A stretch of 52,970 bases of DNA, taken from contig JAURQI010000167.1 in assembly GCA_030836155.1 (NCBI GenBank), forward strand, positions 1-52,970, written 5' to 3'. The stretch comes from Crocinitomix sp. (GTDB lineage Bacteria > Bacteroidota > Bacteroidia > Flavobacteriales_D > Crocinitomicaceae). The notes below the pieces were generated by a model. The model did no database searches. It was not told the origin of the DNA and worked only from the letters and a program-made list of their open reading frames with translations. Of the stretch, positions 1,677 to 21,752 are shown in pieces. The translations under genes were made by a program, and so were the position numbers. Position 1 is the stretch's first letter. Each line of letters opens with the position of its first letter.

Positions 1677-3133
1677 TGAAGATTTATGACGCAGCTGAAA
1701 TAAGGCAATGGGATCAATATACCATTCAACACGAACCCATTTCGTCAATTGACTTAATGGAACGCGCGGCTGGTTTATGTTGTAAACATTTGTTGGGTGT
1801 CTATTCTTTTAATGATGTTCATTTTATTTGTGGTATGGGTAATAATGGCGGTGATGGCCTTGTAATGGCCAGAATACTTCATCGGTTGGGAAAAAAGGTG
1901 AACATCAGCATTTGTTCTATTTCCGAAAAAGGCTCAGCTGATTTTGAAACCAATTTAAAACGACTTCCTGCAGATATCTCTATTAATTATTTAGGTGAGG
2001 AAGACACTTTTAATACATCAGCCGAAATCATTGTTGATTGCCTTTTTGGTTCAGGACTTAATCGACCCGTTGAAGGATGGCTTGGCAACCGCATTGATGA
2101 GGTAAACAACTGTAAAAAGCCAATTGTAGCAATCGATACACCTAGTGGGCTGTTCGTAGGTGACAACTCGTCTAACCCTCTCAATCATATCATTGAGGCA
2201 AACTATACATTTAGCTTTCAAACACCAAAATTCAGCTTCCTATTTGCGACATACGAACGTTATACGGGAATTGTCAGAATCATCAATATTGGTCTATTGG
2301 AAGCTTTTACGACAGATGCGCTAGCCGAAATTATTAAACCGAAATTATTCAAGGCAAAAAAACGTTCACAATTCGACCATAAAGGAAAAAAAGGATTTTT
2401 GACTTTTGTAGGAGGGTTTGATAATATGATCGGCGCTGCTGTCCTATCCACCATTGCAGCCTTTCGCGCTGGATGTGGATATGTAGGTGTTATTTGTGAT
2501 GATCAAGGCAAACAAGCACTCTTTTCTCGCGTTCCAGAAGCCTTGTATTTAGGCAATGAATTTATTGGAGTAAATGAAAAAACGCGCGCTATAGCCATTG
2601 GACCGAGTTTGGGAACGAGCGATAAAAGTAAAGCGACCTTAAAAAAAGTCTTTTCAAGCAATCTTCCAATTGTTATAGATGCAGATGGCATAAACCTCTG
2701 CGCTCAAGATTCCTCTCTTTTAAAGTCGTTACCAAAAGGAACCATTCTCACCCCTCATTTAAAGGAGTTAGAGCGCCTTATCGGAAAAGCAAACTCACCA
2801 GAAGCTTTTCTACAAAAACAAATCGCGTTCTCAGTAAAACACCAAGTTTTTGTAATTCAAAAAGGCGCTTGGTCTAAATTAACAACTCCGAATGGTAAGG
2901 TTTTCATCAACCCAACGGGTAATCCAGGAATGGGTACTTCTGGAATGGGTGATGCACTGACGGGAGTAATTGGCTCATTTTTAGCACAAGGATTTACGCC
3001 CATTCAAGCAGCCATACAAGGAATTTATTACCATGGTAAAGCAGGAGATATTGTAAAGCAAGAACAAGGCGAAACAGGTATAATGACCAGCGATGTCATA
3101 GCAGCCTTACCAAGAGCCATAAATGGCTTTTAG
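1676..3133 (+). CDS. nnr: Bifunctional NAD(P)HX epimerase / ADP-dependent NAD(P)HX dehydratase
   Basis: This two-domain repair enzyme restores NADH and NADPH that have become hydrated. The N-terminal YjeF epimerase domain (about residues 1-215) has the signature GMGNNGGDG at 53-61. The C-terminal ribokinase-like dehydratase domain (about 230-480) has the TPHLKELERL segment and the GMGTSGMGD motif at 418-426. Length (485) fits the fused form. It overlaps the coaE stop by one base, so CoA and NAD(P)H maintenance genes are coupled here. The 3' end overlaps the convergent outer-membrane protein gene by four bases. Confidence 0.93.
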   Translation: MKIYDAAEIRQWDQYTIQHEPISSIDLMERAAGLCCKHLLGVYSFNDVHFICGMGNNGGDGLVMARILHRLGKKVNISICSISEKGSADFETNLKRLPADISINYLGEEDTFNTSAEIIVDCLFGSGLNRPVEGWLGNRIDEVNNCKKPIVAIDTPSGLFVGDNSSNPLNHIIEANYTFSFQTPKFSFLFATYERYTGIVRIINIGLLEAFTTDALAEIIKPKLFKAKKRSQFDHKGKKGFLTFVGGFDNMIGAAVLSTIAAFRAGCGYVGVICDDQGKQALFSRVPEALYLGNEFIGVNEKTRAIAIGPSLGTSDKSKATLKKVFSSNLPIVIDADGINLCAQDSSLLKSLPKGTILTPHLKELERLIGKANSPEAFLQKQIAFSVKHQVFVIQKGAWSKLTTPNGKVFINPTGNPGMGTSGMGDALTGVIGSFLAQGFTPIQAAIQGIYYHGKAGDIVKQEQGETGIMTSDVIAALPRAINGF

Positions 3134-3903
3134 ATTCTGAAATTCAATCCGAGCCTCAACCCAATTCCATACATATGGTGTACACGTTTAAAGGTATCCA
3201 CAGAATATGTATTCCCTAGGTGTCGTCTATATTCAGCAGACAAGGAAATCCCCATTGTTTTGAAATAATAGTTCATTCCTATTCCACCGCTCGCCATCAC
3301 ATTGATCTGAGTAAAATCATCTTTTATACTTGCAATAGGCAAATCAAACGGTTCTCCATCCGCAACACGATACGCGACGTCATAACGTCTCGATAAAATA
3401 TTGATCGGTGTAATCCCTGCAAAACCAAAAAACTGGATATCGTCTCCGACGGTGTAGCGTAATTTTAAAGGTATCCCAACTTGCATATAGACATTGGTAT
3501 AACTGAAGGTAGAGTCAGAATCAGCAGCACTATAATCATAGGCCTCTCCATGTCCAAAGAAAGTGATTCCAGCATCTACGGAGAGATGATTGGTTAAAGG
3601 CATGAGTATGCCTAAACTTACTCCGCCTGTATACATTGGAATTTCATCGTTTTTATTCACGTGGACATCATAAACGGATTGATCTTCAAAAGAGCGATAT
3701 GCATATTGCATAAAACCAGAGACGTGGTAGACAGTGCCCGAAAGGCTATCTTTATTGAAGGTATTGACCCGTTGCGGCCTTTCCTGTTTGTCTTTTTTAT
3801 CTTTTTTGTCCATTTCCCCTCCAGAAATTTGAGCAAAACCTGTTTGAAATACGAATAAGACGAAAATAAAAAATGTTGTTTTTAAGAATATGTAATTTCT
3901 CAT
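3130..3903 (-). CDS. Outer-membrane beta-barrel protein
   Basis: The gene encodes about 257 residues with a clear signal peptide starting MRNYIFLKTTFF and ending near GFAQ. A charged stretch rich in Lys and Asp follows, then alternating hydrophobic and aromatic strands ending in the barrel-like terminus GLRLGLNFRI. An in-frame extension upstream to 3948 would add 15 residues before the signal peptide, so ATG at 3903 is preferred. The pattern fits the broad outer-membrane beta-barrel family of Bacteroidota, for which substrate and role are unknown. Its 3' end overlaps the convergent nnr gene by four bases. Confidence 0.75.
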   Translation of the reverse strand: MRNYIFLKTTFFIFVLFVFQTGFAQISGGEMDKKDKKDKQERPQRVNTFNKDSLSGTVYHVSGFMQYAYRSFEDQSVYDVHVNKNDEIPMYTGGVSLGILMPLTNHLSVDAGITFFGHGEAYDYSAADSDSTFSYTNVYMQVGIPLKLRYTVGDDIQFFGFAGITPINILSRRYDVAYRVADGEPFDLPIASIKDDFTQINVMASGGIGMNYYFKTMGISLSAEYRRHLGNTYSVDTFKRVHHMYGIGLRLGLNFRI

Positions 3904-11074: not shown

Positions 11075-11502
11075 AGACGAAAGATCTTAGATTAAAGATT
11101 TTAGAGCTTTAACCTATGATAATTTCTTCTTAAAGCCGACTATCATTTTTTGTAGTTAATTTAATTCAGTTATTAGTTTTTCATAATCTAATTTGTCAAG
11201 CGTATTTAATTCTTGAGAAATCATCAATTGTGTTTCCAATTCATAGGCTGAGCCTAATGCAATATCCAGAAAACGGCAAAAATCTTTATTCGTTGATCTG
11301 GCAGACCCTTCCGCAATATTTGAAGGTATCGAAACTGCACTTCGGTTTATTTGCGACCAAAGACTAACTTTATCTGATTGAGACATTGAGTTATAAACAA
11401 CTACTATCTTTTTAGCTAATTGTAGTGCTTTTTTCCAAATGTTCAACTGTCGAAAATTATGCATTTAACTGGTCTTCATTCAAATTCCTTCGTCTTTCGT
11501 CT
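11075..11502. repeat. Short inverted repeats flanking the four-helix-bundle gene
   Basis: AGACGAAAGA at 11075-11084 recurs inverted at 11493-11502, embedded in purine-rich low-complexity sequence on both sides (for example AGACTTTAGAATAAAG on the left). The two flanks bracket exactly one gene and its 3' remnant, which suggests that gene and flanks arrived as one unit within the fad operon. Confidence 0.5.
11156..11464 (-). CDS. Four-helix-bundle protein (23S rRNA intervening-sequence family), C-terminally truncated
   Basis: This 102-residue protein belongs to the family first seen inside 23S rRNA intervening sequences (TIGR02436-like). The hallmarks WKKALQLAK, INRSAVSIPSNIAEGSAR and FLDIALGSAYELETQL are present. 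Function is unknown. It stops at TAA 11156-11158, but the same frame continues without interruption for 13 more codons to TAG at 11114-11116 and reads LQKMIVGFKKKLS, which is what the end of this family looks like. A single GAA-to-TAA change explains the truncation, which removes the end of the last helix. The gene lies between fadN and fadA, flanked by inverted repeats. Confidence 0.82.
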   Translation of the reverse strand: MHNFRQLNIWKKALQLAKKIVVVYNSMSQSDKVSLWSQINRSAVSIPSNIAEGSARSTNKDFCRFLDIALGSAYELETQLMISQELNTLDKLDYEKLITELN

Positions 11503-13948: not shown

Positions 13949-14428
13949 TTATTGATTTATATTTTCAAGTTTCTTTTCTTCTTTCTCTGGATTACGATTT
14001 TCGTCTAACATTAAAGAAAGAATGTCATCCAATTGTTGCATCACCTCGAAAAACGCTTTCACTTTTGACTTTGATATTTGCTCATAAACACGCTGATTAA
14101 ATCCTAAGACAACATCTCTGGCCATTTTCCTTCGCTCAACACCTTCTGGTGTTAAAAAAACCAATGATTTTCTTTTGTCAACTTTGTCTTGCTGGCGGGT
14201 AATAATACCTGCAGCTTCCATATTCTTTAATGTGCGCGACAAACTTGTTGGCTCCATGCCCATCTTTGGACCAAGTGACGTACTTGGTGTACCTTCTTTC
14301 TCAATGTTCAAGAGAATAAATCCCCAAGAAAATGACATATTATACTCTGACGCCACCTGATTATAATATCGAGAGATCTTAAACCAATTGTTTCTGATGT
14401 GAAATTCGAAAAGTTGTTCTTTATTCAT
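13949..14428 (-). CDS. MarR-family transcriptional regulator
   Basis: This 159-residue protein contains a winged helix-turn-helix (about residues 30-105), with SFSWGFILLNIEKEG, GMEPTSLSRTLKNMEAAGII and the wing DKRKSLVFLTPEG. MarR proteins are dimeric and usually repress by binding palindromes, with ligands relieving repression. Position at the head of the fadN-fadA-fadE operon suggests it senses fatty acids or acyl-CoA. That is inference from context. A palindrome overlaps its own promoter region. Confidence 0.92.
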   Translation of the reverse strand: MNKEQLFEFHIRNNWFKISRYYNQVASEYNMSFSWGFILLNIEKEGTPSTSLGPKMGMEPTSLSRTLKNMEAAGIITRQQDKVDKRKSLVFLTPEGVERRKMARDVVLGFNQRVYEQISKSKVKAFFEVMQQLDDILSLMLDENRNPEKEEKKLENINQ

Positions 14429-14452
14429 TCAATTATACTTACCTTAGAAACT

Positions 14453-14486
14453 CAAATATAATCATTATGATGTTATGCACGCATAA
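14453..14486 (-). promoter_or_regulatory. Promoter and palindromic operator of the marR-fad operon
   Basis: On the minus strand a TATATTTG -7 box occupies 14460-14453, about 25 bases from the marR start. The palindrome TTATGC-AC-GCATAA is at 14473-14486, where the -33 region would be. A repressor bound there would block RNA polymerase. This fits autoregulation by MarR but has no experimental support. Confidence 0.5.
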
Positions 14487-14639
14487 TAATAATGTTATTT
14501 TTTCTTAAATTCAAAAAGTAAATTAATACCGGATCAAAATCATAATTCATCAATCACTGATCCGATAAGCGTCTAATCGAAAGACCTCAAAAACTATTGA
14601 TTTGAAAGATATTAGGTTGAAAATTGTTCGGCTTTTTAC

Positions 14640-14894
14640 CTACTTCTCTTTAGGAACCCAAGTTTTACTCTCGCGTTTTACACTGCCATCCTTTTTATAT
14701 TCAATGATACAATGTTGTTTGGGCGCTCCGCATTCTTTTGAATAAATAACCTCAAATGCTAGGCCACCGCCTTTATTGTACATCTTGAACTTAGTTAATA
14801 CTCCATTCAATGCGAATAATTCAGATCTTAAATTGCCGTTTTTATAACGCGAAGCATAAATTCCGTGCAACAGTATTAAATTATTCAAAATCAA
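14640..14894 (-). pseudogene. 5'-truncated ORF, weakly YwqK/MORN-like
   Basis: The open frame gives 84 residues from a TTG at 14894 and stays open further upstream without any start codon until a stop about 100 bases away. It therefore looks like the C-terminal part of a longer gene. The pattern GIYASRYKNGNLRSE followed by NGVL and EYKKDGSVKRES resembles degenerate MORN-2/YwqK repeats. It abuts, head to head, a 5'-truncated porP tail on the other strand. No family can be assigned with confidence, and a short intact gene starting at TTG cannot be excluded. Confidence 0.4.
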
Positions 14895-14929
14895 GGTGTC
14901 ACTCTCTGGAAACAGTATCGGACATTTTT

Positions 14930-15139
14930 TTACTTGGTTCTGTAATTTTTCGTGATGAAGATGCCGCCATTTTTGAATTTGGTGCTCGTTATGGAAACTT
15001 TATCGGACGTTTAAGTTATGACATCAATACTTCAAGTTTAAATAGTGTATCAAGTGGTCGTGGAGATACAGAGTTCTCTTTGACTTATATTTTTAGCAGA
15101 CCGAATCCTAATCCGGTTCCAACTTGCCCTAGATTATGA
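14930..15139 (+). pseudogene. C-terminal remnant of a PorP/SprF-family outer-membrane protein
   Basis: About 70 residues look like the end of the T9SS-associated PorP/SprF barrel: an FRDEDAAIFEFGARYGNF stretch, then RLSYDINTSSL, then the terminal strand FSLTYIF. No signal peptide or N-terminal 200 or more residues exist upstream. The preceding frame is short and unrelated, and a minus-strand gene begins instead. PorP/SprF proteins anchor or help export large adhesins. Its TGA overlaps the ATG of the porE-like gene, the usual coupled arrangement. The left break lies roughly at 14900-14930. Confidence 0.65.
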
Positions 15140-17245
15140 TGAAAAAGATTTTTTACTCAATTCTTACGTTGCTTCTTTGTTTTTCCAGTTTTGGACAGAC
15201 CAATACAGAGTTGCAAAAAAATGGGAGATGCAGCAATGATCAATGGGCAGTATACAAACGCTGTTTATTATTATGCTTTCATTTTGTATAAAGTTAAACA
15301 AGGTGAAGACGCCCATTATGATCCATACGAGATTACAACGACCTATAAGAAACCTGAAAAGAACGAGCAAGGAAGTATACTTCCTCCTGCTGATCCAAGC
15401 AGAAAAGAAATCATAATTATTCACAAGTTAGGGCAGGCTTACCTTTTAGCAGATGATTATAAGAATGCAGAGATTTGGCTAGAAGCTGCAGTTCAGCATC
15501 CGCATACAGATTTCCCAAACGCTCGCTACAATTAAGGTGAAGCATTGATGTATAATAATCACTTTAACAACGCAAAGGATTCGTTTGAGAAGTATCAAGA
15601 CGAGAACGGTGACCCAAATAGCAAGTATTATAAATTAGCTGCTTCTCAAATTGCCAGTTGTCAATTTGCCTTGAATCCGATCAACAGAGACATGGAAACG
15701 TTAGTTTCTGAAGGTTTAGGCTATTTAAATGAAGGTACGGCTAGTTTTGGTGTTCAGTTCTATGGAGAAAACCAAGTAATATTCTCAAGTGCACGTCCAG
15801 ACAACGCCAGAAATGATTCGATTAACCCTAATGACAAGTTTATGCTAGACTTGTATTTGGCAACTTTGAATGACGATGGGACCATTGATCAACCTGAAAA
15901 ATTTCCTTTTATCATTAATTCAAAAGAGTATCATGAAGGTTCTGCTGTCATAACTAAAGATGGAAACACCCTCTTTTTCACTAAAATGAATCCTGAGAAT
16001 CGCAATGAGACTAAAATATATGCTAGTAAAAAAATCAATGGAAATTGGATGCAACCCTTTGAATTAGATGACCATGTCAACACCGAAGGATTTCGTTCAT
16101 TAACACCGTTTCTTGCTGACGATGATTCTCGCTTATACTTTGCTTCAAACCGCGCAGGTGGGTTCGGAGGCCTTGATATTTGGTATGTGAAAATTATGAC
16201 CGATGGAAGAACTGGTCGCGCAAACAACGCCGGTGAAAAAATCAATACAGAAGGAGATGAATATGCTCCATTTTACGAGCAAAAAACAGATCGACTTTAT
16301 TATAGTTCTTCAAGACACATAGGCTTTGGAGGGCAAGACATTTATTATAATGAGTGGAACGAAGATGCTGAGGCATTTGGGCAGGCTGTAAACGTAGGCG
16401 CGCCGGTCAATTCAAGCGCTGACGATGGCTTTTTTGTTATTGATGAAGACTTGGAAAACGGGTTTGTGACTTCTAATCGTGATGCATGTATCGAATGTGA
16501 TTCTACTTACAGCCTTGCTGTGCATTGTGATAAAATCTATCAATTTACACGACCAGAAATTGTCTTTGCTATTCAAGGTTATGTTTATGATAAAGAAACC
16601 AAAGAACCTATTCCGAATGCAACCGTTCAATTTAAGGATGTATCTTACCAATGGGAACACTTTGAGGTAACCACAGATGAAAACGGATATTACGAGCATC
16701 ACCTCATAGCGGATCTCGAATTATTTATGCGTGCGAGCATGACAGACTATTTTGCCGATAAGGCATTGATCACTACGATCGGAGAAACAGCATCGCGAAC
16801 ATTCAAACAAGATTTTTATCTTGAGCAAATCCCTAAAAATGAGATTACCATTGAAGGTATTGAATATGACTTTGACAGTGCTAAACTAAGACCTGAATCA
16901 GAAGAAAAATTAGACGAATTAATCGAGTTCTTAGAACTGAATGATAACCTTGTTATCGAGATTCGCTCACACACCGATCAGCGCGGTAATGACGACTATA
17001 ACCTGAAACTTTCAGAACGCAGAGCACAAAGTGTAGTTGATTATCTTATTGCGCATGATATTCCAATGGATAGATTGGTCGCAAAAGGTTACGGAGAAAC
17101 TATGCCTGCTGAAATACCAGATGAAGAGGGCAATGTAAACATTCTTACAGTTGAGTATATCAAAAACCTCCCAACTAAGGATGAACGCGAGGAAGCGCAT
17201 CAGCGTAACCGCCGTACTGCATTCTTTGTATTGGAGCAGCGATAA
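15136..17245 (+). pseudogene. PorE-like protein (TPR - PD40 propeller - CRD - OmpA), interrupted twice
   Basis: The intact ancestor was about 700 residues, with signal peptide MMKKIFYSILTLLLCFSSFGQ, TPR-like repeats, a WD40/PD40 beta-propeller (residues with GGFGGLDIW and GFGGQDIYY), a carboxypeptidase-regulatory-like domain (IQGYVYDKETKEPIPNA) and a C-terminal OmpA peptidoglycan-binding domain (YDFDSAKLRPES, SHTDQRGNDDYN). This order matches PorE, a peptidoglycan-bound T9SS component. A run of seven A at 15215-15221 puts the signal peptide out of frame with the TPR, and six A would restore it. TAA at 15533-15535 interrupts the frame again, and the remainder from 15545 to 17245 (566 residues) is open. 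Expression of the distal part alone is possible but it would lack a signal peptide. Confidence 0.8.
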
Positions 17246-17281: not shown

Positions 17282-17289
17282 TATCTTTG
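17282..17289 (+). promoter_or_regulatory. -7 box (TATCTTTG) for the FKBP genes
   Basis: TATCTTTG matches the Bacteroidota -7 consensus and lies 16 bases before ATG 17305. Its last three bases are the TTG that would otherwise extend the reading frame, which argues for the downstream ATG. No good TTG is seen at -33. Confidence 0.45.
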
Positions 17290-17304
17290 CATAAAAAATT
17301 ACGC

Positions 17305-17904
17305 ATGGATCAAATCAAAAAAGACGCCAGCTATAGTGTTGGCATGAGTATAGGACAAAGTCTGCAAGGTCAAAATCTAGATCAAATTGACCTGGATAGT
17401 TTCATAGAAGGTATTAACGCCATTTTTAATAATAAGCAATTACGATTCACTCCTAACGAGGCGAATGATAAAATCACGACTTATATCAATTCCATGAATG
17501 AGGAGCGATTTGGACAGTATAAGTCGGATGGCGAAAACTTTCTTTCTGAAAATGCCAAACGTGATGAAGTAACGGTTACTTCTTCTGGATTGCAATATGA
17601 GGTTATTGAAGAAGGAACGGGAAACAAACCTTCAGGAACAGATCAAGTTACTGTACATTATCATGGAACGTTAACTGATGGAACTGTTTTTGACAGCAGC
17701 GTTAGTAGAGGCACACCTGCAAGTTTCGGTGTTAATCAAGTAATAAAAGGCTGGACAGAAGCGTTACAAATGATGCCAGCAGGTTCTAAATGGAAATTAT
17801 TTATTCCTGAAAATCTTGCCTATGGTGCAAACCCGCACCCGGGTGGACCAATTAAACCTTATATGGCGTTAATTTTTGACGTTGAACTAATTAGTATTAA
17901 CTAA
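17305..17904 (+). CDS. FKBP-type peptidyl-prolyl cis-trans isomerase (no signal peptide)
   Basis: About 199 residues contain an FkpA-type dimerisation domain (about 1-85) followed by the FKBP catalytic fold (about 95-199), with VTVHYHGTLTDGTVFDSS, GVNQVIKGWTEALQMM and IPENLAYGA. It speeds proline isomerisation during protein folding. FkpA proteins are usually periplasmic, but no signal peptide is seen in this copy, so a cytoplasmic location is likely. It is followed after 4 bases by a lipoprotein paralogue, so the two form a tandem pair. Start 17305 is chosen because the in-frame TTG at 17287 lies inside a promoter -7 box. Confidence 0.9.
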   Translation: MDQIKKDASYSVGMSIGQSLQGQNLDQIDLDSFIEGINAIFNNKQLRFTPNEANDKITTYINSMNEERFGQYKSDGENFLSENAKRDEVTVTSSGLQYEVIEEGTGNKPSGTDQVTVHYHGTLTDGTVFDSSVSRGTPASFGVNQVIKGWTEALQMMPAGSKWKLFIPENLAYGANPHPGGPIKPYMALIFDVELISIN

Positions 17905-17908
17905 ACAG

Positions 17909-18835
17909 ATGCGATTTTTAATCATCTCTTTACTGTTCGGACTCATTGCATGCGGCAATGAGCCTGAACAGGATAATCTACCCACAATAACATCCGAAAC
18001 ACCAACACAAGGTTTTGATAATTTTGACCAAAAAATCAGCTATTGCATTGGATTTGATAATGGTTTTGCAATTAATCAAGTTTATAACGGGCCACGTACG
18101 ACTGGCAAATTCAGTATTGTGGATTTAGAAGCTGGCATGCTGGATTATTTAGGTGATGAAGAATTAAGAATTGACCTTTTCGAGGTTGATTCTATTTTGA
18201 ATTTATATCTCGGAGAAAACGGTACTATCAACTCAGACCTCGTTTCTATGTCAGATGCCAGTTACGCCCTAGGTTTAATGGAAGGAGAGTCACTTGTTCG
18301 AACCTTAGTAGCCAAAGGTATTGATCAGAAGACAGACGTTGCTCAATTGCAAAAAGGACTTTCGAATGGTATTCGTAATAACGAAACGGTTGTAAAAATA
18401 AGTGAGGTGCAAAAGGAAGTATCGACCTACTTTGCAGACATCAATAAACAAATGGGCATTCAATTTCTTGAAAACAATGCCAAACGCGAAGGCATAATGG
18501 TTACCGAAAGTGGCCTACAGTACGAAATTTTCGAAAAGGGAAGTGGCATACAACCTTATATTACCGACTCTTGTGTTGTTCATTACACCGGTCGTTTTAT
18601 TGATGGACGGGAGTTCGAATCGACCATACCGTCTGGTCAGCCAGCAGGCTTTACACCCATGGGTGTCATAAAAGGCTGGCAAGAAGGTTTGCAACTCATG
18701 CGAGAAGGTTCAAGTTACCGTTTTTATGTTCCTTATGAATTGGCTTATGGCGAACAAGGAAGTGGCCCCATAGAACCCTACTCTACTTTAGTATTTGATA
18801 TCGATTTAATCCGTGTGATTCGTTTCGAGGGCTAG
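17909..18835 (+). CDS. FKBP-type peptidyl-prolyl isomerase, lipoprotein
   Basis: This 308-residue protein has a lipoprotein signal ending LIAC (Cys15) followed by NEPEQD. An FkpA-like N-terminal region comes next, and a C-terminal FKBP domain (about 200-305) carries VHYTGRFIDGREFEST, GVIKGWQEGLQLM and VPYELAYGEQ. It likely acts as an envelope folding factor anchored by lipid in the periplasm. It is a diverged paralogue of the gene four bases upstream, with a longer linker. Its last 30 bases overlap the convergent HTTM gene in antisense. Confidence 0.9.
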   Translation: MRFLIISLLFGLIACGNEPEQDNLPTITSETPTQGFDNFDQKISYCIGFDNGFAINQVYNGPRTTGKFSIVDLEAGMLDYLGDEELRIDLFEVDSILNLYLGENGTINSDLVSMSDASYALGLMEGESLVRTLVAKGIDQKTDVAQLQKGLSNGIRNNETVVKISEVQKEVSTYFADINKQMGIQFLENNAKREGIMVTESGLQYEIFEKGSGIQPYITDSCVVHYTGRFIDGREFESTIPSGQPAGFTPMGVIKGWQEGLQLMREGSSYRFYVPYELAYGEQGSGPIEPYSTLVFDIDLIRVIRFEG

Positions 18836-20411: not shown

Positions 20412-21752
20412 ATGAAAGTATTATTCACAATTTTATCCATTATTCTACTGTCAAATATTACCCACGCCCAAAAATACAAGGCGTATTATGCTGACGGTAC
20501 CCTGAAGGAAATTGGTCGCTATAAAAAAGAGAAGCCGGTCGGTAAATGGCGTTTTTATCATGAGAATGGCGAGCTATTAGCAGAAGGGAAATATAAAGAC
20601 AGCCTAAAAGAAGGCGAGTGGAATTATTACCACAACAGCGGTGAATTAATGGAAACCGGATTATTTGTTGCTGGGAAAAAAGAAGGTGAATGGATAGCCT
20701 ATTTTGACAATGGAAACGTTATGTCCAAAGGCCTTTTTAAAGAAGGGTTGGAAACCGGTACCTGGGAGTATTTTTTCCGTTTAGGTAATCTGCAATCTCA
20801 TGGTAACTTCATAAGAGGCGTGCAAAGCGGAATCTGGAACTATTATTATGAAAATGGACAAATAGAAAAAACGGGGTCATGGAAGAATGATCAAAACGAC
20901 GGATTATGGAAGTTCTACTTTGAGGATGGAACATTAAAGCGAACAGGGAGCTGGGACGAGGGCGTTCAAACTGGGGTTTGGTCTTATTATAATGCACTGG
21001 GAAATATAGAAGAGCGTGGTGAATGGAGAGATGGTAAAGCAGTTGGCTTATGGGAGTATTATTTCCCTTCTGGAAAATTAAAAGAAACGGGAAGATGGCA
21101 GAACGATGAACAAATTGGAGAATGGGCCTATTATTATGAGAACGGAAATGTAAAAATGAAGGGGGAATGGAAAGACGGCTTTAATGTTGGTATTTGGACC
21201 TATTATCACGAAAATGGAAATATCAGTAAAAAGGGAAAACGTGCGAATGGTTTCCCTGTGGGTAAATGGACCTACTTCTTCCTCAATGGAAACATAAAAG
21301 AGGAAGGTAATTTTGATGAAGAAGGAAACGAGAAAGGTACTTGGAAAATCTATCACGAAAATGGTAAATTAGCTAAAGAAGGTGAATGGGTTGAAGGAAA
21401 GCAACATGGACGTTGGAAATATTACAGTGAAGAAGGAAAACTGAAAGAAGAAGGTTTTTGGAACGAAGGTGTACAAGATGATGTTTGGTTATATTATGGC
21501 GAAGATGGCAAATTGATAACGCAGGGCAACTGGAATGAAGGCGTTCAAACCGGTGAGTGGATGTATTATTACGAGAACGGAAAATTAAAAGAGCATGGCT
21601 TTTGGAAAGATGGTGTGCAACATGGAAATTGGTTGTATTATCATAAAAACGGCAAAAAGCAACAAGAAGGTGAATTTAGAGATGGAGATCCGGTAGGAGA
21701 ATGGAAAGATTACGATCTAAGAGGGAAATATGAACGTTCGCGATACTACTAA
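20412..21752 (+). CDS. Secreted MORN-2/YwqK repeat protein
   Basis: After a signal peptide (MKVLFTILSIILLSNITHAQ) the whole 446-residue protein is about 18 tandem repeats of roughly 23 residues with the pattern Y-x-NG-x-hydrophobic-x-x-G-x-W-x-x-G-x-x-x-G-x-W. These are MORN-2 repeats of the YwqK type, which form a solenoid of beta-hairpins. Function is unknown. Members labelled antitoxin in databases get that name by association only. The gene precedes the (p)ppGpp enzyme by 30 bases on the same strand, and the DNA repeats mirror the protein repeats. Confidence 0.9.
   Translation: MKVLFTILSIILLSNITHAQKYKAYYADGTLKEIGRYKKEKPVGKWRFYHENGELLAEGKYKDSLKEGEWNYYHNSGELMETGLFVAGKKEGEWIAYFDNGNVMSKGLFKEGLETGTWEYFFRLGNLQSHGNFIRGVQSGIWNYYYENGQIEKTGSWKNDQNDGLWKFYFEDGTLKRTGSWDEGVQTGVWSYYNALGNIEERGEWRDGKAVGLWEYYFPSGKLKETGRWQNDEQIGEWAYYYENGNVKMKGEWKDGFNVGIWTYYHENGNISKKGKRANGFPVGKWTYFFLNGNIKEEGNFDEEGNEKGTWKIYHENGKLAKEGEWVEGKQHGRWKYYSEEGKLKEEGFWNEGVQDDVWLYYGEDGKLITQGNWNEGVQTGEWMYYYENGKLKEHGFWKDGVQHGNWLYYHKNGKKQQEGEFRDGDPVGEWKDYDLRGKYERSRYY

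Follow-up and report, generated by a model that had tools for sequence, protein, structure and literature searches.

The locus raises the question of whether the interval between a marR-family regulator and an FKBP-type PPIase still holds a working type IX secretion (T9SS) module or only the remains of one. The window, i.e. the whole 52,970-nucleotide stretch analyzed here, is contig C132 of G000, a 3.19 Mb draft in 180 contigs with 94% completeness. A first-pass annotation had recognized in this interval a PorP/SprF tail, a porE-like gene with two lesions and a truncated minus-strand ORF, and had read the three together as a deletion scar. Having compared the window with eight further genomes of the same genus (Crocinitomix-like) and with a relative from another genus (G012), we consider it very probable that what remains here is the scar left by an accessory type B module, with a deletion joint between a MORN-type gene and porP, and with the porE frame lost afterwards. 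The window holds no working substrate-PorP-PorE module: the substrate gene is absent, porP is truncated and porE is broken by two lesions.

Remains of the module in the window

The features on which this reading is based are as follows:

13949..14428, minus strand: marR-family regulator, left syntenic anchor (Pfam MarR, 3.8e-9)
14429..14512, no strand: marR upstream region, conserved with relatives (blastn 72-80% to loci L046, L076, L035 and L077)
14640..14931, minus strand: MORN-type gene, C-terminal ~95 codons only, left flank of the joint (58% identical to residues 79-173 of a G004 protein of 175 aa)
14921..14931, no strand: deletion joint, in a short T-rich stretch into which MORN-gene and porP homology both extend
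14921..15139, plus strand: remnant of porP/sprF from codon ~247 through the stop codon (73% identical to G001 PorP residues 238-330)
15136..17245, plus strand: porE-like pseudogene, TPR-PD40-CRD-OmpA (71% identity to residues 26-703 of a 703-aa intact orthologue)
15215..15221, plus strand: A7 run with the porE frameshift, located from the frames before and after it
15533..15535, plus strand: in-frame TAA in porE (Tyr in 7 of 7 intact relatives, in an alignment of eight orthologues)
17287..17904, plus strand: FKBP-type PPIase, intact, right syntenic anchor (Pfam FKBP_C, 1.4e-28)

The marR gene adjoins an intact module in G001, G003, G004, G007 and G012 and adjoins scars in G002 and G006; the FKBP gene lies beside porE or a porE scar throughout the genus. 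The latter gene belongs to a tandem pair of FKBP-type PPIases (17287-18835), both scoring above the BamJ family cut-off (NF053689). Two other parts of the window deserve mention in their own right. At 11156-11464 we found a gene for a four-helix-bundle protein of the 23S rRNA intervening-sequence type (TIGR02436/PF05635), which sits between metabolic genes, not in an rRNA gene, and has the same place in most relatives. At 20412-21752 there is a 446-aa protein with about 14 MORN_2 repeats (375-453 aa in relatives), in a region where strand GC skew is strong (0.41 over 21-22 kb).

The porP remnant ends in TGA at 15137-15139. Taken alone, the 80-codon tail matched nothing in Pfam or NCBIfam; since it is too short for either, its identity rests on comparison with intact orthologues, and its likeness to the end of G001 PorP bears out the PorP/SprF tail proposed from the letters alone. 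The porE-like gene that follows starts at 15136, overlapping the porP stop by ATGA in the same way as in G001 and G004. Its TPR, PD40, CRD and OmpA domains occur in that order in Pfam, the TPR and CRD matches being below the Pfam cut-offs, and this is the domain order of the PorE-like accessory family. Against NF052230, the model for PorE proper with a curated cut-off of 600 bits, the window fragment scored 342 bits and the intact orthologues 352 and 347 bits, indicating that the porE-like gene is an accessory paralogue and not the core PorE. The two lesions described by the first-pass annotation are indeed there, and they are exactly two: the A7 frameshift, before which the first frame keeps its signal peptide, and the TAA, after which the frame is open to 17245.

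As for the age of these lesions, pairwise dN/dS of porE was uninformative owing to saturated synonymous sites, and in its place we counted changes in the window porE at columns invariant in the other genomes. Such changes made up about 4.8% of these columns, within the range of 2.6-17% for intact copies (G004 2.6%, the rest 9.5-17%), and dN to the outgroups was only slightly above that of G004; by this count, accumulated relaxation in the window porE frame was not visible. These data suggested that porE had been under constraint during almost the whole time since its lineage split off, so that either it decayed recently or sequence error accounts for one or both of the small lesions. The A7 shift and/or the TAA are thus possibly recent or possibly errors, and the deletion holds regardless of them.

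One could argue that the ORF at 15545-17245, or the whole gene by way of recoding at the A7 run and the TAA, still works, given that this 566-codon frame is open and conserved. However, the ORF is without a signal peptide, recoding would be needed at both separate lesions, the partner porP has lost three quarters of its sequence and no substrate gene is left, and we therefore regard a working porE as highly improbable. The 566-codon ORF calls for caution against annotating it as a functional PorE/OmpA protein.

Ancestral locus, deletion and joint

An intact adhesin-porP-porE locus in relatives, which the first-pass annotation had expected if the region was decaying, was found in the same neighborhood. 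The gene order in G001, G003 and G007 is marR(-), type A protein(-), adhesin(+), porP(+), porE(+) and FKBP, and the same complete order occurs in G012 of the other genus, with extra genes after marR in some genomes. G004 has this order as well, with its adhesin in two reading frames of 1191 and 109 aa, about 300 bases apart (L031, G004:C56, 9964-14172), a split that may represent a lesion near the gene end or a sequence error. The short contigs of G005 and G008 carry those parts of the module that fit on them.

In these relatives the T9SS type A protein has ~1140 aa and the adhesin ~1400 aa. The G001 adhesin, with 8 PKD matches, a CHU_C match at 5e-12 and a TIGR04131 score of 39.2 bits (cut-off 35), is by the last two matches a type B CTD substrate, which is gone from the window; its divergent neighbor matches SBBP and Ig_7 and carries a type A sorting domain. 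The intact G001 PorP (330 aa, TIGR03519 147.5 bits, cut-off 90.55) lies directly downstream of the substrate gene, and of this arrangement the window retains the porP tail only. Duplicated arrangements were also seen: G012 has two tandem substrate-porP-porE modules with a type A protein gene between them (L033/L040, G012:C1, ~1245000-1264000), and G042, G045, G048 and G063 have two porE-like genes each, about 11-13 kb apart.

From marR to porP codon ~247 there is 0.5 kb in the window vs. 8.7-8.8 kb in G003 and G007 and 13.0 kb in G001, a net loss of ~8.3 kb relative to genomes without extra cargo; in G001, G002, G004 and G006 the marR-side interval holds other cargo (S9 peptidase). Orthologues of the adhesin, of the type A protein and of the porP N-terminus are lacking in the rest of the G000 assembly, which has only paralogues of them at other places (28-44% identical; best matches 31-42%). 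The missing adhesin and missing bulk of porP are hence real absences compared with kin, as had been claimed, and to that claim we can add the deleted type A gene, a MORN remnant at the joint and the almost complete lack of relaxation in porE.

The truncated minus-strand ORF of the first-pass annotation (14640-14894) exists, but it is not part of the module. Its homology is to a MORN-type gene, spanning 14646-14930 in protein and reaching 14931 in DNA, i.e. beyond the TTG of the listed frame. Membership in the adhesin module is ruled out by the intact copies of this MORN-type gene, which G001, G002, G004 and G005 have in other neighborhoods. Its N-terminal half is absent from all G000 contigs, leaving the fragment as the only copy in that assembly. 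A stop-ridden copy of the same gene was seen in G007 (G007:C2:159025-159414).

Joining of two distant loci by misassembly is ruled out by the synteny of both anchors. A broader artefact, in which an intact locus was collapsed or misjoined and the porE lesions are base-calling errors, we consider improbable: in a draft of this kind the joint or the small lesions could be assembly errors, and the porE frame is otherwise conserved, but the flanking anchors are those expected from synteny, no other contig holds any of the ~8 kb of absent genes or the rest of the MORN-type gene, and the two homologies have only ~10 bases in common where they meet. An overlap of ~10 bases is shorter than usual assembly k-mers.

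Returning to a true deletion scar, we surmise the following history. The ancestral marR(-) and FKBP(+) genes would have stood around a type A protein, a PKD adhesin bearing a type B sorting domain, a PorP/SprF-like shuttle and a PorE-like anchor, with the MORN-type gene presumably beside marR before the deletion. A single deletion may then have joined the middle of the MORN-type gene to porP codon ~247, probably by short homology in the T-rich stretch, and would have taken the substrate and the shuttle together with the T9SS type A protein gene. The orphaned porE-like gene, now without a client, would have lost its frame twice thereafter, its breakage likely being neutral. By analogy with work in Flavobacterium and Porphyromonas, the lost module may have displayed the PKD adhesin at the cell surface and held it there as an anchor. 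An intact SprA, which both G000 and G006 have, rules out that the T9SS as a whole was lost. With SprA full and six other porP-like genes remaining in G000, the secretion system itself was not lost, and the decayed unit is one accessory type B module.

Parallel losses within the genus

Two sister genomes carry scars at the same place. In G006 (L077, G006:C56, 7534-7767), the last ~77 porE codons (from residue ~626) remain beside FKBP and begin just past the stop of an S9 peptidase gene; in G002 (L076, G002:C129, ~2845-3155), the last ~100 porE codons (from ~600), likewise beside FKBP, are fused at codon ~857 to the type A protein gene, which runs on the opposite strand. The end points of the G000, G002 and G006 scars all differ, and none of the relatives has the truncated arrangement of the window, a sharing that the first-pass annotation had named as grounds against decay.

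Could a single ancestral deletion, followed by erosion that took its own course in every lineage, lie behind the three scars? They do have a common core (adhesin and most of porP), and among the AU tests run on alternative groupings of a six-protein genome tree a G000+G002 clade was not rejected (p 0.20). However, G006 is nested with the module-keeping G001 and G004 (support 100/100) and a single clade of all scarred genomes was rejected (AU p 0.0007), making a shared event possible for G000 and G002 only and one origin for all three unlikely. From the tree and the AU results, there were at least two losses, and three on the best tree; we conclude that parallel losses number at least two and probably three.

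Sister species show the module at several stages: still intact, broken only lately, or with no more than 75-100 porE codons left. Substrate and shuttle are always lost together, which fits an obligate substrate-PorP pair, and the pattern of loss fits a porE-like gene that is dispensable once both are gone. The 3' end of porE is kept in all three scars, perhaps because an FKBP promoter lies inside it. We doubt that recurrent loss was favored by selection, e.g. because the structure served as a phage receptor or grazing target or was useless in some life styles; if it was, the interval would document that selection repeatedly removed one surface structure by deletion in a single genus. What we describe is gene loss of an ordinary and familiar type, resolved unusually well, its repetition within one genus being mildly notable.

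In a survey of 120 sampled genomes of the family, 115 had a porE-like match at 1e-40, most of these being distant paralogues. Close matches (54% identity or more) outside the genus were full-length except in G016 and G075, where they are at or near contig ends (the end being presumed in G075). In a porE-like gene of another family, two adjacent partial frames were observed (G037:C3:1284687-1286265, query 278-529 and 2-274); the G037 genome is near-complete, and this gene is possibly another broken or split copy.

Comparison with known systems

A literature search for Crocinitomix together with type IX secretion found no paper. Operons of a type B substrate, a SprF-like shuttle and a PorE homologue have been described in F. 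johnsoniae (PMC12618676; PMC9143113), with substrate export depending on the cognate PorP (PMC12618676). In Fjoh_3952-3951-3950, comprising a type B CTD substrate, a PorP/SprF-like shuttle and a PorE-like protein (PMC12618676), the one-strand order substrate-porP-porE is that of our intact relatives, whose substrate likewise has a type B CTD and whose PorE-like OmpA-domain protein likewise comes last; in contrast, the window has lost the substrate gene and the greater part of the shuttle gene, and its porE is broken. In Porphyromonas gingivalis, the type B protein PG1035 has been proposed to be held by PorP and, via PorE, by the cell wall (PMC9143113). The relatives' locus resembles PG1035-PorP-PorE in the arrangement of a type B protein with PorP and PorE, but the PorE-like family of the window, at 342-352 bits vs. 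the cut-off of 600, is an accessory paralogue. With pseudogenized accessory surface-protein loci of bacteria in general, the window shares a deletion followed by frameshift and nonsense mutation; unlike these loci, the module was lost at least two and probably three times, with different end points, in one genus.
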